64,000 nucleotides of DNA, taken from the IMG/VR virus record IMGVR_UViG_3300037541_000632, positions 1-64,000 of that record. One strand, 5' to 3'. This stretch comes from a virus. Shown one piece after another: positions 11,333 to 34,100 of this stretch. The position numbers and the translations under genes were made by a program. Position 1 is the stretch's first letter, and the number at the start of each line of letters is the position of its first letter. The notes beneath the pieces are model-generated. The model saw only the letters and a list, made by a program, of their open reading frames with translations. It made no database searches and was not told where the DNA came from.

Positions 11333-12001
11333 TCAGGTCCAGAAATAGTTTCTGAACTTGATCATCTGAATCAGTATATTTTCATCTGTCTGGTCGATAA
11401 GAGCTTCCAGGCGATTTACTTCTTTGTACATATCTTGGTATTCCTCAATAGCACTAGGTTTAAGTAAAACAGATATATTCCGACTTGGATAAGCTTTGTC
11501 TTTTTCTTTTTCAAGATTAGCTCTTCCTTCGTTAATCCAAACGCACGCCGTATTTAGCCATGCTTTAAACTCAGCGTGTTCCTCGTGCGCCTGCCAGTCT
11601 ACCATTGATTCATCTGCTTCTTTTTTGAACTGCAGAATAGTAGCAAAGTTTACATACAAAATTATTGATGCGGTATCCGCATACCTTTTGGGTACAGCTT
11701 TCCTAATCATAGCGTTCTCTGGTACAAAGAATGTTTTTACCTTGTACCGCAGGGACCGCCATTTACGATAAAGCTTATACTCTATATCTTCAATAGCGTC
11801 ACGAATAGCATACTGAATAGGATGCGCCTTCATAACATTAACCCGCCACGCATCCCATTCTTCCATACTAGCCGCAAAAGGAACGCTATAAAAATAACCT
11901 TTGAATTCTAGATATTTAAACAACTTGGAAAAAATACCACGTTGCAGTCTTATTTCTTTAATTTGTTCTTCAGTCATTGTGTAGGCTTTTTGATTTTTCA
12001 T
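11333..12001 (-). CDS. Conserved phage protein of unknown function
   Basis: 222 aa. The central WDAWRVNVMKAHPIQYAIRD...LYRKWRSLRYKVKTFFVPE segment resembles a large-phage family of unknown function. It is helix-rich, with no membrane segment. It overlaps the downstream end of the double glycosyltransferase gene by 4 nt and converges on the lysis cassette stop with no spacing. Confidence 0.5.
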   Translation of the reverse strand: MKNQKAYTMTEEQIKEIRLQRGIFSKLFKYLEFKGYFYSVPFAASMEEWDAWRVNVMKAHPIQYAIRDAIEDIEYKLYRKWRSLRYKVKTFFVPENAMIRKAVPKRYADTASIILYVNFATILQFKKEADESMVDWQAHEEHAEFKAWLNTACVWINEGRANLEKEKDKAYPSRNISVLLKPSAIEEYQDMYKEVNRLEALIDQTDENILIQMIKFRNYFWT

Positions 12002-13752
12002 TTTAGCTTTTCAAACTCAATTAAATTCTTTGCAATTCTTTCTCTTTCGTGCGCGGGAATCAGCTGAGCAGCAAGAGGACTTTCAATAAGCGTTTTAGCT
12101 GCTTTAATTGCCTCGCCCTTGTTACCACTGCGCGCAGCCATAATTGAATACTCATCCAGCATACGCCATTGCTGAATATCAGCGCGAACAAACAAACTAT
12201 CTCTGGTAGGCGGGATCTTGACACCTAAAGAAACAAATGCCCAAGCTAATGCAAAGCGTTCTTTATCTCTCAAATAAATAATAAGATCAAATAAAGCGTC
12301 TACGCGCGAAGGTCGATATTCCCAGGCCTTGAGAAACGCATCAATAATTTCTTCATCTTTATATTTAAGCGAGGTCTTGAGGCGAGCTACCATGTACTTA
12401 GAATAGTACACCTCTTCTTCCCAGCCTCCGAGATCTGCTCGCTGTTGATACGCGATAAGGGAACGCTCATGCATTCCAGCATCTCTGTAACTTTGCGCCA
12501 AATAAAAAGTATATCTGCTTTTAAGACCGTCATCGATTGTATCCGCTAGTAGTGCTTTCTCTAAAATAAGAGCGTCACTGATATATTTCTTCTGCCCAGA
12601 AAATCCGTTTCTAGTATCAGAGGCAGAAGCATGAATAATAACATTATTCAATACAACCGCTGGAAACATTTTAACGTCTTTAGGACCATCCAGATACTCA
12701 TGCAGCACGCCTACATATTTCCATTCATAAGCGTTATTCACAACCTGCACTCTGCTGTATTCAAGCCCGCCATGAATAATTTTAAGATGGTATTGATCAA
12801 ACTTTAGATTTTTAAGTACATTCTTATCGCCTTTAATTTCAATGTAATCATCAGCGTCCATTACAAGAGTATAGTCACCCTTATCTCTAGCAAGTTTAAG
12901 CGACTCTGTTCTGTTGGTAGCAAAATCAATCCAAGGCCGTTCATGAAGTTCCCCGGGAATGCCCCACTCAGCCATAAGGTCTTTGATAAGCTGCTGTGTG
13001 CCATCGGTTGAACCCGTGTCGCAGATTACCCAAGAATCAATGGTGTCCTTAACAGACTCAAGGCAGCGACGCATATTGTGAAGTTCATTCTTCACAATCA
13101 TAGCCAGCACAATTTTAGAATTTGCCGGGCGAGTTAGTTCCAGAAACTTACCATGCCCTTGCATATAATTTCTCTGATCATTACTCTCCAGATAAGTTTT
13201 ATCCCACTCTGCTTTATTAAAAATAGGATGTTTATGCTCAAGCACAATATGCTTAGCCTCTTTAATTACACCGTCTTTATGTGCAGCCCAGGTAAAATAG
13301 TTATCACTGTATACGCTAAAGAAATCAGGATGAAACAAAAAGCCCTGCGTCTCATAGCGCTTACGATTTAGAATAGCCATGCAGAGCAAGTCATCTGTGC
13401 GATGCCCATCTGAAATAGCCAACACCTGTTCTCCTTCTACACCTTCAAACTCCTTGATAATGCTTTCGTCCCAACCCTCAACTGGTTCCCAGTCGTCAGA
13501 CAGCTGAATAAGGATTTCACCATTACTAGCTTTAGCACATGCATTCCAAGCAGCTACGCAACCTTTACCTCGCGCCACAATAACTCTTTGAGTATTAATA
13601 TCTGTAAGGCTATCGTTATCGTCATCATCAATACCAAAGATATGTTCAATAGCTTTAGGATCTTTAGCCGAGTTCAACCATTTATCACGACATTCAGTAG
13701 CTTGTTTCGAACGTCCACGGGTTGCATGCAGGAGGGATATTTTATAGCTCAT
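11998..13752 (-). CDS. Double-domain GT2 glycosyltransferase with TPR-like tail
   Basis: 584 aa. Residues 1-120 form a GT2-like nucleotide-sugar domain (ISLLHATRGR, GIDDDDND, IQLSDDW). Residues ~212-330 are a second, canonical GT2 domain (VLAMIVKNELHNMRRCLES, ICDTGSTDGTQ, YTLVMDADDYIEI with the DxD motif). The remaining ~230 residues look like helical TPR-type repeats (SRYTFYLAQSYRDAGMHERS). This resembles SunS-like GT2 proteins fused to an extra transferase. It may add two sugars in sequence to a phage or host glycan. Confidence 0.8.
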   Translation of the reverse strand: MSYKISLLHATRGRSKQATECRDKWLNSAKDPKAIEHIFGIDDDDNDSLTDINTQRVIVARGKGCVAAWNACAKASNGEILIQLSDDWEPVEGWDESIIKEFEGVEGEQVLAISDGHRTDDLLCMAILNRKRYETQGFLFHPDFFSVYSDNYFTWAAHKDGVIKEAKHIVLEHKHPIFNKAEWDKTYLESNDQRNYMQGHGKFLELTRPANSKIVLAMIVKNELHNMRRCLESVKDTIDSWVICDTGSTDGTQQLIKDLMAEWGIPGELHERPWIDFATNRTESLKLARDKGDYTLVMDADDYIEIKGDKNVLKNLKFDQYHLKIIHGGLEYSRVQVVNNAYEWKYVGVLHEYLDGPKDVKMFPAVVLNNVIIHASASDTRNGFSGQKKYISDALILEKALLADTIDDGLKSRYTFYLAQSYRDAGMHERSLIAYQQRADLGGWEEEVYYSKYMVARLKTSLKYKDEEIIDAFLKAWEYRPSRVDALFDLIIYLRDKERFALAWAFVSLGVKIPPTRDSLFVRADIQQWRMLDEYSIMAARSGNKGEAIKAAKTLIESPLAAQLIPAHERERIAKNLIEFEKLK

Positions 13753-15592: not shown

Positions 15593-15666
15593 TGGTAGCC
15601 CTCCCAGGACTCGAACCTAGAACGAGAGAATCAAAATCTCCTGTGTTACCTTTACACCAAAGGGCT
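15593..15666 (-). tRNA. tRNA-Gln (TTG)
   Basis: Acceptor AGCCCTT/GAGGGCT, D stem GTG/CAC, anticodon loop TTTTGAT, T loop TTCGAGT, discriminator A and encoded CCA (15593-15595). Its 5' end overlaps the stop region of the GDP-fucose-synthase-like gene by two bases, so it is co-transcribed with that gene. Confidence 0.92.
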
Positions 15667-16609
15667 ATAATCTGATGTTGCCTGAAGCAAGCTCAAACTT
15701 ATAATTCATATACGTCTGAGTAATTCCTTCTTCAAGTTTTATCTTTGGACTCCAGCCAATATATCTCATTCTACTAGAATCCATGATTTTACGCATAGTT
15801 CCGTCAGGCTTACTGCTGTCAAAGTTAATGGTGCCTTTAAAACCAACAGTAGATGCAATTAACGTAGCTAGGTCCTTGATACTAATGTCAGAACCATAAC
15901 CGACATTATAAATATATTGGCATGTGGTTAGCTCCATTAATAGTTTACAAGCTTTCGCCAGATCATCTACATGTAGGAACTCGCGCATGGGCGCGCCCGT
16001 ACCCCACAGAGTAACTGTGTCTTCTTTTCTAATATACTGAGAAGCCTCAAAGAATCTGCGAATTAATGCCGGGAGTACGTGACTAGTTTCTAGATTATAG
16101 TTATCTCCCGGACCATACAGGTTGCATGGCATAAGCGCTAGATATTCCAATCCCTTAGCCTTGCGATAATACTCACAGAGTTTTACACCGCATATTTTAG
16201 CCAGGGCATAAGCTTCATTAGTCTTCTCCAAAGGACCAGCAAGTAAATCAGCTTCAGAAATAGGACGATCAAATCCTTTTGGATAAATACAGGAGCTGCC
16301 AAAATAAATTAATTTAGGTACATTGTATTTAGCTGCAGTGTTAATACAGTTGTTAGCAATGGCCATGTTGTCTGTAAAGAATTCTACAGGGTTATTAGCA
16401 TTAGCTAAAATACCTCCAACTTTACCTGCAGCCACAATCACAGCCTGGATAGGCCCTTTGTATTTAAAGTAATAATCTACAGCTTGTGCATCGCACAAAT
16501 CAAGTTCCTGCCTCGTGGGTGCAAGCACATGATATTTTGTTTCATTGTTAAGCAATCTATGAATTGCTTTACCTACCATTCCATTAGCGCCTAATAACAG
16601 TACAGTCAT
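15665..16609 (-). CDS. fcl: GDP-L-fucose synthase-like epimerase/reductase
   Basis: 314 aa. The NAD(P)-binding Rossmann loop GANGMVG is at 7-13. The catalytic triad of the extended SDR family is Ser105/106 (YFGSSCIYP), Tyr134 and Lys138 (YALAK). PCNLYGPGDNYN and the C-terminal GTGAPMREFLHVDDLA motif are typical of GDP-4-keto-6-deoxymannose epimerase/reductase. It would supply GDP-fucose to the phage glycosyltransferases. No GDP-mannose dehydratase is in the window, so the host or another locus must provide the precursor. Confidence 0.88.
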   Translation of the reverse strand: MTVLLLGANGMVGKAIHRLLNNETKYHVLAPTRQELDLCDAQAVDYYFKYKGPIQAVIVAAGKVGGILANANNPVEFFTDNMAIANNCINTAAKYNVPKLIYFGSSCIYPKGFDRPISEADLLAGPLEKTNEAYALAKICGVKLCEYYRKAKGLEYLALMPCNLYGPGDNYNLETSHVLPALIRRFFEASQYIRKEDTVTLWGTGAPMREFLHVDDLAKACKLLMELTTCQYIYNVGYGSDISIKDLATLIASTVGFKGTINFDSSKPDGTMRKIMDSSRMRYIGWSPKIKLEEGITQTYMNYKFELASGNIRL

Positions 16610-17308: not shown

Positions 17309-18346
17309 TTAAGCGACGCCAACGATTTCTACGTTACGACCATAACGATCTTCTAACGCAGCTTCAATGGTTTTGCAACTAGGAGACACAGCCTCGACAT
17401 GCCAGATCTTTGTGGTCTGATTTAGCATCTTAAGGTGCGGCGCATAGTCGACATTAGGAAAGAGCGACTGCATATCCCAAAGCTCATACTCAGATTTGGT
17501 GTACCACTCGTCATTGTATGATGTATGAGAATCCACTTTTTTACCCATTTCAAGCAAACGCTCAACACCGATTTTGCGAACAAACTCGGCTTTAATGTCG
17601 GCATTCTTGATTTCGTGAATCCGCTCCACTGGAATTTTCTGCGCAGGAGTGACTGCGAGCCACTCTGGTACAGTCACGCCGTTGAGAGCGAAAATCTTAA
17701 TGTCGCCGTAGCCTTCATACACGACAGCAGGTCCGCCGTCGCAGTGAATAACACCAGCATCATTGAGTTTAACCAGAGATGGCTTCTCAGAAACAATGCA
17801 CATGTCCTGCACAGTGCCGGTGACGCCATGAATTGGGTAAATCAAACCAAGCTCTGTAGTAGTCTTCCAGATCTCGTAAAGTTCATCAACGCTGAGCTTA
17901 GACTCGTTTTTGGCCGCGTTGTCTACAGGTGTTCCGGTAGTTTCCAACGCAATTCCAAGTTCATACTTGAAGAAGTCGTAGAAAGCAAAGGTCGGAGCCG
18001 AGAACGAACCATTAAGATAAGGGGAAACATATTGTGTAAGTTTCCATTTCGGTCTTTTACCATTAAAGAAGTCGTCTACGCATTTCTTCAGCTCATTGAT
18101 TGCATGGCCGTGAGCTGCATAGTTACAAGCAACCCAAGCTTCCATCGGGTTGTTGAATATGATAACAGGAGTAGGCTCCTTATTAAGAATGTGACGCTGG
18201 ACATTTTGAATAATGTCTAGCGTACGATCATAGTTGAGACGTGCGGTATCATTACCAATCTTTATCCACTTAGCGACATACTCAGGCATTTTAGCTTTCT
18301 GCTCAGGAGTAAGTTCGGCGATCTTTTCTTTAATTTTGTTTTCCAT
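17309..18346 (-). CDS. DUF6745-family protein
   Basis: 345 aa. The diagnostic C-terminal segment is present: IHGVTGTVQDMCIVSEKPSL, LNDAGVIHCDGGPAVVYEGYG, ALNGVTVPEWLAVTPAQKI, then an EFVRKIGVERLLE helix. The family is common in cyanobacteria, actinobacteria and large phages, and its function is unknown. It sits between an AAA ATPase and the HGE-type small protein, a co-occurring set that may act together. Confidence 0.75.
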   Translation of the reverse strand: MENKIKEKIAELTPEQKAKMPEYVAKWIKIGNDTARLNYDRTLDIIQNVQRHILNKEPTPVIIFNNPMEAWVACNYAAHGHAINELKKCVDDFFNGKRPKWKLTQYVSPYLNGSFSAPTFAFYDFFKYELGIALETTGTPVDNAAKNESKLSVDELYEIWKTTTELGLIYPIHGVTGTVQDMCIVSEKPSLVKLNDAGVIHCDGGPAVVYEGYGDIKIFALNGVTVPEWLAVTPAQKIPVERIHEIKNADIKAEFVRKIGVERLLEMGKKVDSHTSYNDEWYTKSEYELWDMQSLFPNVDYAPHLKMLNQTTKIWHVEAVSPSCKTIEAALEDRYGRNVEIVGVA

Positions 18347-19523: not shown

Positions 19524-19922
19524 TTAAGCCGGAACAAATTTCTTAACTGCTAGCTTTTCTACTTCACTAAATGGACGGTTCTCTTTACCGAACCTATAAT
19601 CCGTCTCATGAAGAATATATAAATTACAATTCAAGTCATTAGCGACTTGTTGTAGTTTTTCAGAATCGTCTGCTAGATCCAAATCTCCCCACCAAATTTT
19701 ACCTTGGTCAGTGACCACATTAGCATTGAATACTGCTTGGTTGTTTGGTCTTTCAGATATGTACATACTTTTGCTAGAAGCAATCATTCGAGATAACTCG
19801 AATCCATGTTTCCGCATTACTTTTAATTCTGTGGCATGCCTCTGTGTTACTTGCGTAACTTCTGCATGAAATTCTTCATTCTGAGATTGCATATTTTTAT
19901 TCTGCGATTGCGTCTTTTTCAT
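19524..19922 (-). CDS. Conserved phage protein (IWWGDLDL family)
   Basis: 132 aa. The second half, VVTDQGKIWWGDLDLADDSEK...LYILHETDYRFGKE, is a recurring phage pattern of unknown function. The first 20 residues (MKKTQSQNKNMQSQNEEFHA) are copied exactly at the start of the upstream chimeric gene. The start overlaps that gene by 26 nt. Confidence 0.6.
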   Translation of the reverse strand: MKKTQSQNKNMQSQNEEFHAEVTQVTQRHATELKVMRKHGFELSRMIASSKSMYISERPNNQAVFNANVVTDQGKIWWGDLDLADDSEKLQQVANDLNCNLYILHETDYRFGKENRPFSEVEKLAVKKFVPA

Positions 19923-19969
19923 TTATCAAATCATACCATTCTTTTGGAATGTCTACTACCTGATCGGTA
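19861..19969. repeat. Direct repeat A, copy 1 (109 bp)
   Basis: Identical to 20141-20249 as far as I can read. It covers the 3' end of one gene (…DIPKEWYDLINEKDAIAE) and the 5' end of the next (MKKTQSQNKN…), so a gene junction was copied whole. Confidence 0.9.
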
Positions 19970-20202
19970 ACTAAAGCTGATCCATTGTCTTTGTCTATTT
20001 GTTCGATTGCGCGTTTCAAGTAAATAGCCTTATCAAGAGTTTCCTCGTAGGCATGCTGCAACCACTGTTTTAAAGACAAATCATTGTCTCTCACAGTGCT
20101 ATTATATTTTTTAATACCCATTTGTTGTCTGCGAGAAATATCTGCATGAAATTCTTCATTCTGAGATTGCATATTTTTATTCTGCGATTGCGTCTTTTTC
20201 AT
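19897..20202 (-). CDS. Chimeric gene made by local duplication
   Basis: 101 aa in three borrowed parts. The N-terminal ~20 residues equal the start of the 19524-19922 protein. Residues ~21-75 (ISRRQQMGIKKYNSTVRDND…IEQIDKDNG) equal the 20571-20831 protein. The C-terminus (VTDQVVDIPKEWYDLINEKD) equals the end of the 20177-20632 protein. One deleted base restores the frame across the last seam. The central domain resembles the phage family with a KYG…DNxLS…WLQHAYEExLD…YLK pattern (DUF5664-like), possibly nucleotide-related. Confidence 0.65.
   Translation of the reverse strand: MKKTQSQNKNMQSQNEEFHADISRRQQMGIKKYNSTVRDNDLSLKQWLQHAYEETLDKAIYLKRAIEQIDKDNGSALVTDQVVDIPKEWYDLINEKDAIAE
19966..20146. repeat. 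Direct repeat B, copy 1 (181 bp)
   Basis: Matches 20612-20793 except for one missing base (gatcc versus gattcc near its left end). It encodes the KYNSTVRDNDLSLKQWLQHA domain. The single indel decides which C-terminus each copy gets. Confidence 0.9.
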
Positions 20203-20249
20203 TTATCAAATCATACCATTCTTTTGGAATGTCTACTACCTGATCGGTA
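20141..20249. repeat. Direct repeat A, copy 2 (109 bp)
   Basis: Second copy of repeat A. Copy junctions coincide with short identities (tctgca on one side, ggta on the other), typical of template switching or microhomology-mediated recombination. Confidence 0.9.
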
Positions 20250-20632
20250 GTAACATAAAAAACTGAAGTTATCGCGGGCATAGCAGATTCAAAAACTTCT
20301 TGTAAAAGAAGCAGCACTTCTACAACACCCGCAGTTGAAGCGAAATACTGAACTCTACTCTCCGCTGGAAAAAGAAGAGTGAATATTTTAGTATCTGACT
20401 TAAATTTATTAGCTGCCTTAGCGGCGGCTTGCGCATTAGTTTTCTCTGCGTCCTTAGCTAAGATGGCTTGTTGCTTCAAGTCAGCAATACTAGCTGAAAT
20501 CGCCATATACTCAGCCACCCTAGCCTTCTTAATTTCTTTAGTCGGAGAAGAATTAATATCTGAATTGATTTTAGCTGCTCTTGCTTTCAGAGCCACTAGC
20601 TTGTGATTGATGGTAACTAAAGCTGATTCCAT
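20177..20632 (-). CDS. Ala/Lys-rich coiled-coil protein, unknown
   Basis: 151 aa. Residues 1-90 are helical and Ala/Lys-rich (KARAAKINSDINSSPTKEIK, ADLKQQAILAKDAEKTNAQA). A beta/alpha segment (FTLLFPAESRVQYFASTAGV) and the tail shared with the chimera follow. The start lies 62 nt inside the upstream gene in another frame. No family recognised. Confidence 0.55.
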   Translation of the reverse strand: MESALVTINHKLVALKARAAKINSDINSSPTKEIKKARVAEYMAISASIADLKQQAILAKDAEKTNAQAAAKAANKFKSDTKIFTLLFPAESRVQYFASTAGVVEVLLLLQEVFESAMPAITSVFYVTTDQVVDIPKEWYDLINEKDAIAE

Positions 20633-20831
20633 TGTCTTTGTCTATTTGTTCGATTGCGCGTTTCAAGTAAATAGCCTTATCAAGAGTTTCCTCGTAGGCA
20701 TGCTGCAACCACTGTTTTAAAGACAAATCATTGTCTCTCACAGTGCTATTATATTTTTTAATACCCATTTGTTGTCTGCGAGAAATATCTGCACAAACAT
20801 CCGCCTCAGTACCAATAACATTTATTTCCAT
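20571..20831 (-). CDS. DUF5664-like phage protein (parental copy)
   Basis: 86 aa from ATG 20831 (MEINVIGTEADV); an in-frame ATG at 20861 is possible. Residues ~13-70 hold ISRRQQMGIKKYNSTVRDND and LSLKQWLQHAYEETLDKAIY, matching a common phage family with a conserved WLQHA and ExLD core. That family has sometimes been linked to dATP/dGTP diphosphohydrolases; I cannot confirm activity. The last 13 residues differ from the chimeric copy because of a one-base frame difference. Confidence 0.65.
   Translation of the reverse strand: MEINVIGTEADVCADISRRQQMGIKKYNSTVRDNDLSLKQWLQHAYEETLDKAIYLKRAIEQIDKDNGISFSYHQSQASGSESKSS
20612..20793. repeat. Direct repeat B, copy 2 (182 bp)
   Basis: Second copy of repeat B, with one extra T relative to copy 1. 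It forms the body of the probable parental gene at 20571-20831. Confidence 0.9.
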
Positions 20832-20883
20832 GGTGCGCGTGTTATACAATTGGCTTTGCATTCACGCAATACCAAAGTGTAAA

Positions 20884-21264: not shown

Positions 21265-21436
21265 CTTTTGTAGATTGTTCTAGCTCATTCCATTTTCTGC
21301 GTTCCGGGTAAACCTTGGACCAGATTATTTCGGCCATAAGTTCCAGGTCTTGAATATCAGTAAGGGTGGTTTCACAACACTCACGATCTGTACAATCATA
21401 AGGTGTCGGACAATTTTGGCATGTGATAAAAAACAT
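21212..21436 (-). CDS. Small Cys-rich protein
   Basis: 74 aa with six cysteines in the first 21 residues (CQNCPTPYDCTDRECC), possibly a zinc or disulfide knuckle, and then a helical Trp-rich tail (EIIWSKVYPERRKWNEL). The long overlap with the following gene lowers certainty about one of the two. Confidence 0.5.
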   Translation of the reverse strand: MFFITCQNCPTPYDCTDRECCETTLTDIQDLELMAEIIWSKVYPERRKWNELEQSTKDEWIRYTKVARTVILCL

Positions 21437-21638
21437 TATGTGTTAAGGTTATCCTCAAAAAACTTATCCTCAAAAAATCATTTACATTATAAAATGTGCG
21501 TCTGAAAGTATGGTTCCAAATATGCGCGCGGAAACCAATATCACACAGAGAATTAATGCGTTTATTAAATTCTAAATGACAGCACGCATTATGCACGTCG
21601 CTCATTAATCTGTCATATACATGGGCTTCAAGTGTCAT
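21396..21638 (-). CDS. Degenerate last member of tetrapeptide-repeat array 1
   Basis: 80 aa from the junction ATG at 21638, which overlaps the preceding unit's stop by 11 nt. It begins MTLEAHVYDRLMSDVHN but has lost the DSVx periodicity. Its length and start are conserved while the repeats have decayed. It marks the 3' (oldest) end of the array. Confidence 0.55.
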   Translation of the reverse strand: MTLEAHVYDRLMSDVHNACCHLEFNKRINSLCDIGFRAHIWNHTFRRTFYNVNDFLRISFLRITLTHNVFYHMPKLSDTL

Positions 21639-21831
21639 ATGATTCAATTAGTTTATCAATTTTGTTGTAAACATCTCTGCAAAAAGAATAACGAAAATAA
21701 TGCTGAACAGAGTCATCAACAGAATCAATAACAGAATTACGAACAGATTGCCGAGCAGAATTAAAAACAGAATTTAAAACAGAATTCCAAACAGAATCAT
21801 AAACATTATAAACAGAAGCTTCAAGTGTCAT
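21628..21831 (-). CDS. Tetrapeptide-repeat protein, array 1 unit 11
   Basis: 67 aa. It starts MTLEASVYNVYDSV and ends IDKLIESYDT. Repeats are eroding (SVQHYFRYSFCRDVYNK), intermediate between the regular units and the degenerate last one. Confidence 0.6.
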   Translation of the reverse strand: MTLEASVYNVYDSVWNSVLNSVFNSARQSVRNSVIDSVDDSVQHYFRYSFCRDVYNKIDKLIESYDT

Positions 21832-22039
21832 ATGATTTCATTAGATCTTTGATTGAATTATATACAGAATTATAAACAGAATCCCAAACAGGCTTACAAA
21901 CAGAATTACAAACAGAACTACGAACAGAATTATGAAAAGAATTATGAAAAGAATTAAAAACATAATTATCAACATAATTCCAAACATAATTATCAACATA
22001 ATTACAAACAGAATCACAAACAGATTCTCTAAGTGTCAT
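21821..22039 (-). CDS. Tetrapeptide-repeat protein, array 1 unit 10
   Basis: 72 aa, MTLRESV…KDLMKSYDT. The middle carries a variant run YVDNYVWNYVDNYV in which Ser is replaced by Tyr at the second position, and HNSFHNS where Val becomes Phe. Confidence 0.7.
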   Translation of the reverse strand: MTLRESVCDSVCNYVDNYVWNYVDNYVFNSFHNSFHNSVRSSVCNSVCKPVWDSVYNSVYNSIKDLMKSYDT

Positions 22040-22247
22040 CGGATTTAATTAGGTTATAGACAGAATCACAAACAGAATTATAAACAGAGTCTTTAATAGA
22101 ATCCCAAACAGAATGACGAACATAATCCCAAACAGAATTATAAACAGAATAATAAACAGAATTATAAACAGAATCCCAAACAGAATTATAAACAGAATCA
22201 CGAACAGAATTATAAACAGAATCACGAACAGAATCTTTAAGTGTCAT
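22029..22247 (-). CDS. Tetrapeptide-repeat protein, array 1 unit 9
   Basis: 72 aa, almost perfect repeats (DSVYNSVRDSVYNSVWDSVY) and tail YNLIKSDDT. Its start overlaps the previous stop by 11 nt. Confidence 0.75.
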   Translation of the reverse strand: MTLKDSVRDSVYNSVRDSVYNSVWDSVYNSVYYSVYNSVWDYVRHSVWDSIKDSVYNSVCDSVYNLIKSDDT

Positions 22248-22467
22248 GAGATTTAATTAGGTTACAGACAGAATCCCAAACAGAATCCCAAACAGAATGA
22301 CGAACAGAATTCCAAACAGAATACTGAACAGAATTATTAACAGAATTCCAAACAGAATAATAAACAGAATACTGAACAGAATTATCAACAGAATTCCAAC
22401 CAGAATTATGAACAGAATTATCAACAGAGTCACGAACAGAATTATAAACAGAATATTCAAGTGTCAT
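22237..22467 (-). CDS. Tetrapeptide-repeat protein, array 1 unit 8
   Basis: 76 aa, MTLEYSVYNSVRDSVDNSVH…CNLIKSHDT. Gln and His occur at the variable position more often than in other units (NSVQYSVYYS). Confidence 0.75.
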   Translation of the reverse strand: MTLEYSVYNSVRDSVDNSVHNSGWNSVDNSVQYSVYYSVWNSVNNSVQYSVWNSVRHSVWDSVWDSVCNLIKSHDT

Positions 22468-22651
22468 GTGATTTAATTAAGGTGTGAATTGAATTATAAA
22501 CAGAATCTTCAACAGAATCCCAAACAGAATCCCGAACAGAATTAAAAACAGAATCATAAATAGAATCATAAATAGAATCATAAACAGAATCCCAAACAGA
22601 ATTAAAAACAGAATTCCAAACAGAATTATAAACAGAATCTTTAAGTGTCAT
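22457..22651 (-). CDS. Tetrapeptide-repeat protein, array 1 unit 7
   Basis: 64 aa, MTLKDSVYNSVWNSVFNSVW…HTLIKSHDT. It contains a run with Ile in place of Val (YDSIYDSIYDSV). Confidence 0.75.
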   Translation of the reverse strand: MTLKDSVYNSVWNSVFNSVWDSVYDSIYDSIYDSVFNSVRDSVWDSVEDSVYNSIHTLIKSHDT

Positions 22652-22883
22652 ATGATTTCACTAGGTCTTTGACTGAATTATATACAGAATCCCAAACAGA
22701 ATCCCAAACAGAAATATCAACAGAATCCCGAACAGAATTATAAACAGAATCCCAAACAGAATCCCAAACAGAATTATAAACAGAATCCCAAACAGAATTA
22801 TCAACAGAATCAAGAACAGAATCCCAAACAGAATTACGAACAGAACTATGAACAAAATTATAAACAGAATCTTTAAGTGTCAT
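22641..22883 (-). CDS. Tetrapeptide-repeat protein, array 1 unit 6
   Basis: 80 aa, the longest unit. Its central block (RNSVWDSVLDSVDNSVWDSV) is shared with units 1, 3 and 5, showing recent duplication with gain or loss of whole 12-bp repeats. Confidence 0.75.
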   Translation of the reverse strand: MTLKDSVYNFVHSSVRNSVWDSVLDSVDNSVWDSVYNSVWDSVWDSVYNSVRDSVDISVWDSVWDSVYNSVKDLVKSYDT

Positions 22884-23091
22884 GAGATTTAATTAGATCT
22901 TTAATTGAGCTATAAACAGAATCCCAAACAGAAATATCAACAGAATCCCGAACAGAATTATAAACAGAATCCCAAACAGAATTATAAACAGAATCCCAAA
23001 CAGAATTATCAACAGAATCAAGAACAGAATCCCAAACAGAATTACGAACAGAATTACGAACAGAATTATAAACAGAATCTTTAAGTGTCAT
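22873..23091 (-). CDS. Tetrapeptide-repeat protein, array 1 unit 5
   Basis: 72 aa. The first ~36 residues (MTLKDSVYNSVRNSVRNSVW and on) equal those of units 1 and 3. The tail is SSIKDLIKSHDT. Confidence 0.75.
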   Translation of the reverse strand: MTLKDSVYNSVRNSVRNSVWDSVLDSVDNSVWDSVYNSVWDSVYNSVRDSVDISVWDSVYSSIKDLIKSHDT

Positions 23092-23299
23092 GTGATTTAA
23101 TTAGGTTGGTAATTAAATTATAAACAGAAACGCGAACAGAGTTATTAACAGAATCAGAAACAGAGTTATAAACGGAATCAACAACAGAATCAACAACAGA
23201 ACCACGAACAGATTTATGAACAGAGTGCCGAGTAGAATTTAAAACAGAATTCCAAACAGAATTCCAAACAGAATTATAAACAGCGTGGTCAAGTGTCAT
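23081..23299 (-). CDS. Tetrapeptide-repeat protein, array 1 unit 4
   Basis: 72 aa, a divergent start (MTLDHAVYNSVWNS) and middle (HSVHKSVRGSVVDSVVDSVY), between two members of the unit 1/3/5 type. Confidence 0.75.
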   Translation of the reverse strand: MTLDHAVYNSVWNSVWNSVLNSTRHSVHKSVRGSVVDSVVDSVYNSVSDSVNNSVRVSVYNLITNLIKSHDT

Positions 23300-23471
23300 A
23301 TGATTTCACTAGGTCTTTGATTGAATTATATACAGAATCCCAAACAGAATCCCAAACAGAATTATAAACAGAATCCCAAACAGAATTATCAACAGAATCA
23401 AGAACAGAATCCCAAACAGAATTACGAACAGAATTACGAACAGAATTATAAACAGAATCTTTAAGTGTCAT
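23289..23471 (-). CDS. Tetrapeptide-repeat protein, array 1 unit 3
   Basis: 60 aa, the shortest regular unit of this array. It equals unit 1 for ~36 residues and then lacks several tetrads, consistent with in-frame deletion of 12-bp repeats. Confidence 0.75.
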   Translation of the reverse strand: MTLKDSVYNSVRNSVRNSVWDSVLDSVDNSVWDSVYNSVWDSVWDSVYNSIKDLVKSYDT

Positions 23472-23667
23472 GTGATTTAATTAGATCTTTAATTGAGCTA
23501 TAAACAGAATCATGAACAGAAATCCGAACAGAGTCACGAACAGAATTATGAACAGAAACACAAACAGAATCCCAAACAGAATTATGAACAGAATTATGAA
23601 CAGAATTCCAAGCAGAACTATGAACAGGCTTACGAACAGAATAATAAACAGAATATTCAAGTGTCAT
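23461..23667 (-). CDS. Tetrapeptide-repeat protein, array 1 unit 2
   Basis: 68 aa, MTLEYSVYYSVRKPVHSSAW…KDLIKSHDT, with His-rich variable positions (HNSVHNSVWDSVCVSVHNSV). Confidence 0.75.
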   Translation of the reverse strand: MTLEYSVYYSVRKPVHSSAWNSVHNSVHNSVWDSVCVSVHNSVRDSVRISVHDSVYSSIKDLIKSHDT

Positions 23668-23875
23668 ATGATTTCACTAGGTCTTTGATTGAATTCCAAA
23701 CAGAATACTGAACAGAATTCCAAACAGAATTATTAACAGAATTCCAAACAGAATTCCAAACAGAATAATAAACAGAATCCCAAACAGAATTATCAACAGA
23801 ATCAAGAACAGAATCCCAAACAGAATTACGAACAGAATTACGAACAGAATTATAAACAGAATCTTTAAGTGTCAT
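23657..23875 (-). CDS. Tetrapeptide-repeat protein, array 1 unit 1
   Basis: 72 aa, first unit translated. Its ATG overlaps the stop of the upstream conserved phage gene in a GCATGA arrangement, so the whole array is coupled to that gene. It starts MTLKDSVYNSVRNSV and ends KDLVKSYDT. The fold is unknown; a period of four residues with Val at a fixed position could give a helix with one drifting apolar stripe or a beta solenoid. Confidence 0.75.
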   Translation of the reverse strand: MTLKDSVYNSVRNSVRNSVWDSVLDSVDNSVWDSVYYSVWNSVWNSVNNSVWNSVQYSVWNSIKDLVKSYDT

Positions 23876-24444
23876 GCGCTTATCCAGTCAGGTTTATTCT
23901 GTATCCACTTATGTAAGTGCTGTTTACCTGCTATGTAAAAATTACGATAGGCCTGCACCGAGTCTTCGCATTTAAATTCATCAGGCATCGCCTGCGCAAA
24001 TTCCGTTATAGATCCTTCAGGTACAAGACTATGCTGTAAATTTAGTTGAACCCAATTAATAAAAGGAATGCAGAAATGCTGTGCGGGCGCGCTATTAACA
24101 ATATCCGGGGCGTGAGGCTTACCTTCCTCTTTTAATTTAAGCAGCTCTTGTGCTTTCAGCCTATAACGCTGAATTCTTTCTGTATCCATGGCAAATGCAT
24201 GTGCAATTAACCACCTCATATTCTCCCGGGATACGCGGACCCATTTACTGCAGGGATGGTTGTAATGCGCGTATTTACGCACTGTACCTGCCTGAGTCCT
24301 AGGACAAGTCTCGTCAGCCAACTGCTCCGGTGAAAAGCAGTTGGCTAACATCTGAGCAGATTCCAATACCATTTTCACGACATGGGAATCTACAAGGTGT
24401 CTCGCCGACTTGACGGGGCACCTGTAAATTGCGAAGATATTCAT
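23872..24444 (-). CDS. Conserved phage protein (VDSHVVKM…MPDEFK family)
   Basis: 190 aa. Landmarks are RCPVKSARHLVDSHVVKMVL, HYNHPCSKWVRVSRENMRWL, FAQAMPDEFK and AYRNFYIAGK. This family is frequent in large phages and has been compared with pyrimidine-dimer glycosylase-like proteins, but activity is not established. It directly precedes array 1 and overlaps the upstream gene by 4 nt. Confidence 0.7.
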   Translation of the reverse strand: MNIFAIYRCPVKSARHLVDSHVVKMVLESAQMLANCFSPEQLADETCPRTQAGTVRKYAHYNHPCSKWVRVSRENMRWLIAHAFAMDTERIQRYRLKAQELLKLKEEGKPHAPDIVNSAPAQHFCIPFINWVQLNLQHSLVPEGSITEFAQAMPDEFKCEDSVQAYRNFYIAGKQHLHKWIQNKPDWISA

Positions 24445-32271: not shown

Positions 32272-32467
32272 ATGATTTCATTAGATCTTTGATTGAATTA
32301 TATACAGAATCCCAAACAGAATTATCAACAGAATCCCAAACAGAATGACGAACAGAATCCCAAACAGAATCCCGAACAGAATTATCAACAGAATCCCAAA
32401 CAGAATTATAAACAGAAGTACAAAAAGAGGCACGAACAAAATAATAAACAGATTCTTCAAGTGTCAT
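32261..32467 (-). CDS. Tetrapeptide-repeat protein, array 2 unit 4
   Basis: 68 aa, MTLEESVYYFVRASFCTSVY…KDLMKSYDT. Its tail matches the array 1 type, hinting at exchange between arrays. Confidence 0.75.
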   Translation of the reverse strand: MTLEESVYYFVRASFCTSVYNSVWDSVDNSVRDSVWDSVRHSVWDSVDNSVWDSVYNSIKDLMKSYDT

Positions 32468-32567
32468 ATGCTTTTATTAGATTGGTGATTGAGTTATAAA
32501 CAGAATCTTCAACAGAGTCCCAAACAGAATTATTAACAGAAATACGAACAGAATCTTCAAGTGTCAT
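32457..32567 (-). CDS. Tetrapeptide-repeat protein, array 2 unit 3 (mini-unit)
   Basis: Only 36 aa: MTLEDSVRISVNNSVWDSVE then DSVYNSITNLIKAYDT. Same 11-nt overlaps at both ends. It shows that unit length can shrink by whole tetrads without losing the head or tail. Confidence 0.7.
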   Translation of the reverse strand: MTLEDSVRISVNNSVWDSVEDSVYNSITNLIKAYDT

Positions 32568-32763
32568 ATGCTTTTATTAGGTTATACACAGAATTATAAA
32601 CAGAATTATAAACAGAAACACGAACAGAATTACCAACAGAACGCCAAACAGAAATATTAACAGAATTACTAACAGAATCCCAAACAGAATTATCAACAGA
32701 ATTCCGAACAGAATTACGAACAGAATCCCAAACAGAATTCCAAACATATTCTTCAAGTTTCAT
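32557..32763 (-). CDS. Tetrapeptide-repeat protein, array 2 unit 2
   Basis: 68 aa, MKLEEYVWNSVWDSV. The second half (VNISVWRSVGNSVRVSVYNS) is nearly identical to the next unit upstream, so the pair is a recent duplication. Confidence 0.75.
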   Translation of the reverse strand: MKLEEYVWNSVWDSVRNSVRNSVDNSVWDSVSNSVNISVWRSVGNSVRVSVYNSVYNSVYNLIKAYDT

Positions 32764-32971
32764 AGGATTTTATTAGATTGGTGATTGAATTATATACAGA
32801 ATTATAAACAGAAACACGAACAGAATTACCAACAGAACGCCAAACAGAAATATTAACAGAATAATAAACAGAACTTTGAACAGGATTACTAACAGAATCA
32901 TTAACAGAATCAAGAACAGAATTACAAACAGAATTAAGAACAGGATCCCAAACAGAAGCTTTAAGTGTCAT
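32753..32971 (-). CDS. Tetrapeptide-repeat protein, array 2 unit 1
   Basis: 72 aa from the family ATG at 32971 (MTLKASVWDPV); a TTG further upstream also keeps the frame open. First translated unit of the array, 17 nt after the stop of the metallopeptidase gene. The tail is NLIKSYET. Confidence 0.75.
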   Translation of the reverse strand: MTLKASVWDPVLNSVCNSVLDSVNDSVSNPVQSSVYYSVNISVWRSVGNSVRVSVYNSVYNSITNLIKSYET

Positions 32972-32988: not shown

Positions 32989-33621
32989 TCAATAATACCG
33001 GGTGTGTTGGCCGATGCGTACACCTGCTTTTTTAAATATATTTTTAGTGTTTTTCATGTCAGTAAAGTAGTCAAGTGGTTGCAGTACAGTAGGTAATTGT
33101 TGTTCAAGTATAGTGTCACACACGCCTGTAAAACCATTATTCCAGTCTCGCCTAATACGGGTCCAAGAATAGAATAATAGATTGTTATTAGCGCAACGAG
33201 ATATAGCCGCAATATCCAATGGTAGGTTATGCGTCAAAGCCATACTCAATGCCATAGTTTCGGCATCATGCTCAAGCGCCAGTGTGTTTCTAAACGCTAA
33301 TTCTATCTCTGGTTTAGAAAGAACAATAGATCTGTTCAACCAGTTAATATATTTATACGTACCTTCCTTATGCAAATAATGCCATAATTCAGTCTTATCT
33401 CTGTGCTGAATGAAATGGGCATACTCGTGCAAAAATGTATATACACTAAATGATCCCTGTCCCATAGCCACAGTCAGTGAATTACGCGCAGCATCAAATG
33501 TCCCAGAGTATTTATTATTAATTACTCTCTTATTAGTTAAATGAACACTGATTCCATGTTGAATCAGTTCTTGTACTTTGGAGCCTATGAATTCGAGGCA
33601 CCTAGAGGGAATGGTATCCAT
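32989..33621 (-). CDS. HExxH metallopeptidase-like protein
   Basis: 210 aa. The zinc-binding helix FLHEYAHF puts His65, Glu66 and His69 in place; LEHDAETMA further on can provide the third ligand, as in ImmA/IrrE-like gluzincins. There is no signal peptide, so it acts inside the cell or virion. It overlaps the APS kinase gene by 37 nt and precedes array 2. Confidence 0.7.
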   Translation of the reverse strand: MDTIPSRCLEFIGSKVQELIQHGISVHLTNKRVINNKYSGTFDAARNSLTVAMGQGSFSVYTFLHEYAHFIQHRDKTELWHYLHKEGTYKYINWLNRSIVLSKPEIELAFRNTLALEHDAETMALSMALTHNLPLDIAAISRCANNNLLFYSWTRIRRDWNNGFTGVCDTILEQQLPTVLQPLDYFTDMKNTKNIFKKAGVRIGQHTRYY

Positions 33622-34100
33622 CTTTCTAAAATAGCGGAAAAGCTATCGAACATATATTCAATTTCCCGATTACCATCAATACTTGCCCATGGAGCAGGTA
33701 AAGCATCGACAGCGCCAACCAATTTAGTTTGGTCTGCATATGTATGAGGCTTGCGCTCCTTACATACACTTAACGAAGTGTTTACATAAACAAATTTAGT
33801 GTCAGGCAATAACTGCAGTACTTCATTCCTTTGCTCTTGGAATGGCGCACAAGCAGCAACTATTACAGCAATACCCAAGTCCTTGTAAGTCTTAGCCAGC
33901 CGGGTAATGCGACGAGTATTTTCTAATCTCGCATCTTTAGACAATCCAATCTCAGGCCAGTAATTATTTCTTAATTCATCCGCATCCAGCACTATGAATG
34001 TAATATGCCATGGCGCAATTAACTGCTGTGCATATCTGGTAATTGTAGTTTTGCCACTTCCAGATAATCCGTACAACCAAAGCACTGAATGCATATGCAT
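33585..34100 (-). CDS. cysC: Adenylylsulfate (APS) kinase-like enzyme
   Basis: 171 aa. P-loop GLSGSGKTT at 11-19, then the APS kinase landmarks LDADELRNN, IGLSKDARLENTRRITRLAK, IVAACAPFQEQRNEV and a C-terminal GAVDALPAPW. The family phosphorylates adenylylsulfate to PAPS, the sulfuryl donor. The adjacent upstream gene encodes a sulfotransferase, so the pair probably forms a sulfation unit. APS would come from host ATP sulfurylase. Starts at 34100 or 34094; overlaps the neighbour's stop. Confidence 0.8.
   Translation of the reverse strand: MHMHSVLWLYGLSGSGKTTITRYAQQLIAPWHITFIVLDADELRNNYWPEIGLSKDARLENTRRITRLAKTYKDLGIAVIVAACAPFQEQRNEVLQLLPDTKFVYVNTSLSVCKERKPHTYADQTKLVGAVDALPAPWASIDGNREIEYMFDSFSAILERWIPFPLGASNS

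Follow-up and report, generated by a model that had tools for sequence, protein, structure and literature searches.

Arrays of tiny tetrad-repeat genes in a phage as a possible recombining repertoire linked to DUF6745 proteins

The window analysed here, 64,000 nucleotides (nt) of virus DNA (positions 1 to 64,000 of the IMG/VR record IMGVR_UViG_3300037541_000632), contains two arrays, A and B, of small overlapping genes built of [N/D]-S-V-x tetrads, each encoded by 12 bp and with its positions termed p1, p2, p3 and x. On balance, comparison with other phages and with bacteria inclines us to read these arrays as a recombining repertoire of tetrad rods that would work with a DUF6745 (PF20530) protein of the same phage. 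The tetrads recur inside DUF6745 proteins of other phages and bacteria, and separate tetrad genes accompany DUF6745 genes in many phages.

Translation of the open reading frames (ORFs) showed array A to consist of eleven minus-strand ORFs (23875-21628), located between a 190-amino-acid (aa) gene (24444-23872) and small genes without assigned identity. The arrangement is as follows.

23872..24444, minus strand: gene upstream of array A, 190 aa (Pyr_excise PF03013, E 7e-6; PHROG 624)
23657..23875, minus strand: array A unit 1, 72 aa; shares ATGA with the end of the upstream gene
23461..23667, minus strand: array A unit 2, 68 aa
23289..23471, minus strand: array A unit 3, 60 aa
23081..23299, minus strand: array A unit 4, 72 aa
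22873..23091, minus strand: array A unit 5, 72 aa
22641..22883, minus strand: array A unit 6, 80 aa, the unit modelled by AlphaFold
22457..22651, minus strand: array A unit 7, 64 aa
22237..22467, minus strand: array A unit 8, 76 aa
22029..22247, minus strand: array A unit 9, 72 aa; shares an identical string of 71 bp with array B unit 6
21821..22039, minus strand: array A unit 10, 72 aa; shares an identical string of 50 bp with array B unit 4
21628..21831, minus strand: array A unit 11, 67 aa, partly degenerate
21396..21638, minus strand: ORF following unit 11, which it likewise overlaps by 11 nt; starts with MTLEA

Each unit ends in S-(Y/H/D)-D-T followed by the stop, and neighbouring units overlap by 11 nt, namely ATGACACTT followed by GA, AA or AG. 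An earlier, sequence-only reading of this DNA had described twelve coupled tetrad genes that start with MTL[KE] and vary in length by whole tetrads only. Eleven such units with 11-nt overlaps were indeed found; the twelfth ORF contains no tetrads and may be either a decayed unit or a different gene. The MTL start is kept, with K, E, D or R as the fourth residue, a restriction that follows from the overlap, which sets the preceding stop as TGA, TAA or TAG. The length is a multiple of four residues in ten of the eleven units, the exception being unit 11 with 67 residues. In the window, the ([ND]SVx)x4 pattern occurs 55 times, where shuffles gave an expectation of 0.00. A looser pattern of four S-V tetrads matched 120 times in the 101,264-bp virus contig, always on the minus strand of arrays A and B (120/120), and the scan found no further array in this contig.

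Array B, which had been overlooked earlier, comprises eight coupled minus-strand units (32971-31420), and identical strings shared between units of the two arrays reach 71 bp.

32753..32971, minus strand: array B unit 1, 72 aa
32557..32763, minus strand: array B unit 2, 68 aa, starting with MKLEE
32457..32567, minus strand: array B unit 3, 36 aa
32261..32467, minus strand: array B unit 4, 68 aa
32077..32271, minus strand: array B unit 5, 64 aa
31857..32087, minus strand: array B unit 6, 76 aa
31661..31867, minus strand: array B unit 7, 68 aa
31420..31671, minus strand: array B unit 8, 83 aa; runs 8 nt into the following gene (ATGAATAA)

All 19 units of arrays A and B lack a Shine-Dalgarno sequence in the 18 nt before the start and are therefore probably translated by reinitiation coupled to the upstream stop.

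Since the 12-bp period leaves several frames open, open frames alone are no proof of coding, and the assignment of the S-V frame rests on comparison. A search for tetrads in other phages, which the sequence-only reading had suggested, revealed arrays in many IMG/VR phages; the degenerate pattern scan of that database returned at least 118 stretches, most of them true tetrad proteins. These fall into several dialects at p2-p3, S-V in the window and N-V, Q-V, Q-L, N-I or S-L elsewhere. Hardly any variation is seen in the S and V codons inside one phage, and between phages they differ only in their third bases, with TCT-GTT in the window, TCT-GTC in L095, TCA-GTA in L061 and L087, TCT-GTA in L023 and TCA-GTT in L060. 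Most other dialects likewise use one nearly invariant p2-p3 hexamer each (CAA-TTA, CAA-GTC, CAG-CTC, AAC-ATC). Seven fused proteins carry the same hexamer in every counted tetrad (e.g., 46/46 CAG-CTC and 43/43 TCG-GTC); their tetrads were picked by amino acids, so that the identity of the codons is the informative part. Genome codon usage does not explain the fixed hexamer, because in L095 GTC occupies 101 of 104 V positions but makes up 15% in the rest of the genes. Read in the +1 frame, the window would give a strongly hydrophobic sequence (ILFG...), yet this frame is closed by TAA where TCA-GTA precedes an AGG x codon, as in L061; the antisense open frames are a consequence of the 12-bp period. 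From these comparisons, the arrays are very probably protein-coding.

The codons at x and p1 behave differently from the fixed core. One-step changes among tetrad types at 13 loci amounted to 323 nonsynonymous and 21 synonymous, where about 16% synonymous would be expected; the ratio was obtained from a minimum-spanning tree and is a rough measure, not a formal ratio of nonsynonymous to synonymous rates (dN/dS). Positive selection on x and p1 would be the natural reading, rough as this ratio is, and the codon pattern suggests that duplication or recombination homogenises the 12-bp modules while the amino-acid diversity at these two positions persists.

Turnover of the arrays can be followed in pairs of almost identical phages recovered from separate metagenomes. 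The alignment of L086 with L113 covers 9,266 bp and contains no mismatch and a single 1-bp gap outside the array; what sets the two apart is a 274-bp deletion by which the first part of unit 1 is joined in frame to the last part of unit 2. Between L068 and L086 there are six substitutions in 3,913 bp, all six inside the 385-bp array (probability about 1e-6 if placed at random), and these change x or p1 (N->T, D->Y, K->S by two bases, K->E and G->R). L337 and L338 show differences of 12 bp and 36 bp plus two substitutions over 7,952 bp; of the 17 array mismatches given by MAFFT, most were misalignment around the gap, and the affine aligner left the two. The arrays of L353 and L354 differ by 60 bp. 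All length differences between near-identical phages thus correspond to whole tetrads or to a unit fusion, with the frame kept. The idea of a repertoire that changes by recombination, already put forward from the sequence, is well supported, in relatives and not in this phage itself, by these in-frame indels of 12, 36 and 60 bp and the 274-bp fusion; long identical strings are also shared within and between arrays A and B, and there is good reason to regard recombinational turnover as real. Inside array A, the long identical stretches noticed earlier in units 1, 3, 5 and 6 measure 92-130 bp, except for 70 bp between units 1 and 6. The accompanying proposal of growth at the 5' end and decay at the 3' end is weakly supported, since two of the 5' units, 2 and 4, diverge as much as the 3' units.

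The proposed partner of the tetrad proteins is encoded downstream of array A.

17309..18346, minus strand: P0001, DUF6745-type protein without tetrads, 345 aa

P0001 scores 25.9 bits against PF20530 (E 2.5e-7 in the genome search), just under the curated cut-off of 27 bits, and homologues 46-48% identical to it score 34.6, 43.8 and 31.7 bits, above that cut-off. In an alignment with fused and split members, it has the conserved N-domain and the SFYDFF/RLH..DG C-domain. It is 79% identical to the DUF6745 protein of the nearest phage (L330) and 46-53% identical to homologues that adjoin arrays in other phages, where a DUF6745-matching gene of about 290-390 aa lies next to the array. Among the 37 DUF6745 loci gathered in the search for relatives, 25 contain tetrads, 23 as separate genes and two fused (L365 and L366), as against none of 79 control loci (Fisher p 1e-16). 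The tetrad genes at these loci all lie on the same strand as the DUF6745 gene, barring antisense frames of the same repeats, and the linkage is seen in the SV, NV, QV and QL dialects. Conversely, a full-length DUF6745 protein was found in 13 of 20 array-bearing records, that of the window included, although the profile used for this count includes some of these proteins and the E-values are accordingly not independent. Arrays of the Q-L and Q-V dialects lie beside DUF6745 genes at L362:8550-10110, L363:10920-11220, L355:12360-13140 and L360:13920-14760.

The tetrad block is also found fused inside DUF6745 proteins of phages, Xenococcus and other bacteria, where it is positioned exactly between the conserved N- and C-domains. 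The Mycobacterium abscessus prophage prophiGD102-1 carries a fused block of the QL dialect and the spring-water phage cta39025 one of the SL dialect; in the former (L370:2932-4377), all 46 counted Q-L tetrads use CAG-CTC. The occurrence of fused and split forms suggests that the small proteins correspond to an arm detached from the DUF6745 partner. The partner gene, the fused forms and the dialects, which like array B are absent from the sequence-only reading, are the strongest pointers to function. Pairs of fused and split genes are commonly taken as a sign that two proteins associate physically, though they do not prove it; together with the linkage they make a partnership between DUF6745 and the tetrad proteins likely. 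A second family also contains a tetrad block (L043:230-976 and L065:1272-2108, with similar loci in L016, L048, L070 and L081), flanked by '...LLKEW' and '...SFF...LW..GLVPSFDGKTWRLHSG'; it has no Pfam match and is possibly a distant DUF6745 relative. Bacterial and archaeal genomes yielded 119 stretches, most of them unrelated simple repeats with about six true tetrad proteins, and no host for the arrays was found among them. The phage collection that was searched likewise contained no cultured phage with an array. The neighbours of the fused DUF6745 genes gave no clue to function.

The tetrad units had no match above cut-off in Pfam, the DUF6745 domain included, or in PHROGs, NCBIfam, PADLOC and PDB sequences, and hidden Markov models of anti-phage defence in PADLOC-DB matched neither the unit nor the DUF6745 or fused proteins. 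The AlphaFold model of array A unit 6 is one alpha helix spanning residues 3-79, with a mean predicted local distance difference test score (pLDDT) of 89 and a predicted template modelling score of 0.40. In the fused protein L118 the DUF6745 domains were modelled at about 90 and the tetrads at 38-55 pLDDT, so that a single-helix fold of the units is weakly supported by modelling. The x residues along the array gave no convincing signal of periodicity or of a superhelix period. A heptad or hendecad coiled coil (period 3.5-3.67) was rejected since the period is exactly 4 and x hydrophobicity has no positive periodicity. A relation to phage tape-measure proteins (TMP repeats) was also discarded: PHROG 1272 was reached only at E 0.016 and 0.042 and the units have 36-83 aa; a tblastn hit to the tape measure of a Geobacillus phage had E 4e-3 and 37% identity. 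MSCRAMM SD-repeat adhesins were dismissed as well, the fused proteins scoring 13-17 bits against NCBIfam cut-offs of 650-2500 and the window unit giving no score.

A possible mechanism can be proposed in which the separate tetrad genes are a detached and multiplied version of the block found inside other DUF6745 proteins. In these rods, p2-p3 would form a fixed scaffold, and x and p1 would be variable and exposed. If 12-bp modules, or entire units, recombine with one another or slip, the number and order of tetrads and the number of units could change with the frame intact, and a phage population may thereby hold a changing set of rods, which would dock onto DUF6745 and lend it different binding specificities. 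The most plausible guess for the targets is variable host or competitor proteins inside the cell; an intracellular target is favoured because the tetrad consensus, judged by eye, has no hydrophobic segment fit for a signal peptide or membrane anchor. We infer the physical partnership with DUF6745, the translation of the units and their helical rod structure, whereas the binding target and any anti-defence or inter-phage role are speculative. A variable binding repertoire fits the diversity at x and p1 and is put forward tentatively.

Other explanations of the arrays were weighed against this mechanism. The tetrad proteins might be passive spacers or low-complexity rods that slip like a 12-bp satellite and vary neutrally at x and p1, in keeping with the lack of strong periodicity or order in the x positions along the array and with a fused block that varies in length between two folded domains and is modelled at low confidence. 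Neutral drift should, however, leave synonymous third-base changes, whereas the third bases of p2, p3 and most p1 and x codons are nearly fixed in every array even as x and p1 vary; the six substitutions between L068 and L086 are all nonsynonymous at x or p1, with none in the flank, and a spacer role gives no reason for separate genes in up to about 40 copies per genome. We regard this explanation as unlikely. Far less probable still is that the arrays act at the DNA or RNA level (as recombination or packaging sites, or repeat hot spots), their frames being a by-product of the 12-bp period. That period does open several frames, antisense included, and the core hexamer is fixed at the DNA level in each genome, but the S-V core changes across phages only synonymously and the dialects differ by amino acid. 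In addition, starts, stops and 11-nt overlaps are kept in each unit, indels are in frame, and the +1 frame is closed in L061.

A repertoire acting independently of DUF6745, as decoys or inhibitors alone, would make the linkage a shared neighbourhood in one lineage. We judge this improbable because fused forms with these tetrads at one and the same position are found in bacteria and phages that are unrelated, and in several dialects, and because the linkage spans the SV, NV, QV and QL dialects. It does draw on some of the points that weigh against the proposed partnership: the DUF6745 gene of the window lies about 3 kb from array A and is not adjacent to it, seven of the 20 array-bearing records have no full-length DUF6745 (possibly fragments), and the DUF6745 protein of phage Ma-LMM01 has no internal tetrads, with no array seen within 5 kb. 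Further points on the same side are that the tetrad gene is absent at 12 of the 37 DUF6745 loci (some of them truncated), that two of the 25 positive loci are the fused L365 and L366 and not split, and that the 37 loci are phylogenetically non-independent, with controls drawn from other phage groups. No PDB entry matched DUF6745 at E below 1, and the partner therefore gives no functional hint. The fold of the tetrads is uncertain, given the gap in pLDDT between the unit alone and the block inside the fused protein. The natural pairs are short-read metagenome assemblies, in which repeats are possibly collapsed or mis-joined, and single cases may be assembly errors.

The literature search found no paper on the domain name, the motif strings or the fused or split form, subscription papers being mostly outside the search; the earlier statement that no phage system of this form has been described agrees with this and with Pfam, PHROGs, NCBIfam and PADLOC. 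In the viral library, only Ma-LMM01 gp174 and one fragment matched DUF6745. The main text of the Ma-LMM01 transcriptome paper does not mention gp174, and its neighbour gp173 is a middle gene according to that paper. DUF6745 proteins have no assigned function; fused members have their N- and C-terminal domains separated by the same tetrad block, and the 345-aa protein of the window shares both domains, the difference being that in this and other phages the block is absent from the protein and is encoded by many separate small genes. The focusing of variation on chosen codons of a fixed scaffold resembles diversity-generating retroelements. Retroelement-driven variation was rejected, however, as no reverse transcriptase (RVT_1) was found in the 101-kb record, and the array changes, not being confined to template A sites, comprise substitutions of A, G, T and C together with gains and losses of whole modules. 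The PTD repeat of a gracilibacterium (PMC6851277) is likewise a short perfect in-frame repeat, hypervariable in a natural population; it lies in a single gene and its DNA varies while its amino acids are fixed, whereas the tetrad arrays have a fixed core DNA, varying x and p1 amino acids and many genes. Phage repeat arrays of changing length are also known from the Campylobacter phages CP220 and CPt10 (PMC2853527), where units of about 75 bp are nearly all extragenic and length changes occur within a plaque-purified population; the tetrad repeats are of 12 bp and genic. Pentapeptide-repeat and other short-period solenoids share a short motif of fixed period in which an aliphatic residue sits next to a polar one; the tetrads differ by a period of four, the lack of a Pfam match and an AlphaFold model that is helical, not beta.

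Several neighbouring genes were also recorded. A homologue of the 190-aa upstream gene, 72% identical to it, lies before an array in L122 as well; the units of that array, in the same place, have ends unrelated to those in the window (MKQSLNN...NKINETIT) and a different overlap. Between array A and the DUF6745 gene, four adjacent small minus-strand ORFs (19524-20861) are mosaics of shared stretches (MKKTQSQNKNMQSQNEEFHA, DQVVDIPKEWYDLINEKDAIAE, ADISRRQQMGIKKYNSTV and others) and represent partial gene duplications. Other genes of the window are listed below.

33585-34100, minus strand: APS-kinase-like gene
15665-16609, minus strand: nucleotide-sugar epimerase gene
11998-13752, minus strand: glycosyltransferase gene

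These observations link a Pfam domain of unassigned function to widespread, fast-changing tiny phage genes that standard annotation leaves unnamed. It is conceivable, though we hold it with some reserve, that they represent a new phage diversity system in which one DUF6745 protein is served by interchangeable rods, with 12-bp shuffling, lineage-specific dialects and an intracellular binding repertoire. If so, phages would diversify proteins without a reverse transcriptase through in-frame shuffling of 12-bp modules, which would raise the question of what in the host cell drives constant change in these proteins, and the fused and split arrangement offers a direct biochemical hypothesis.

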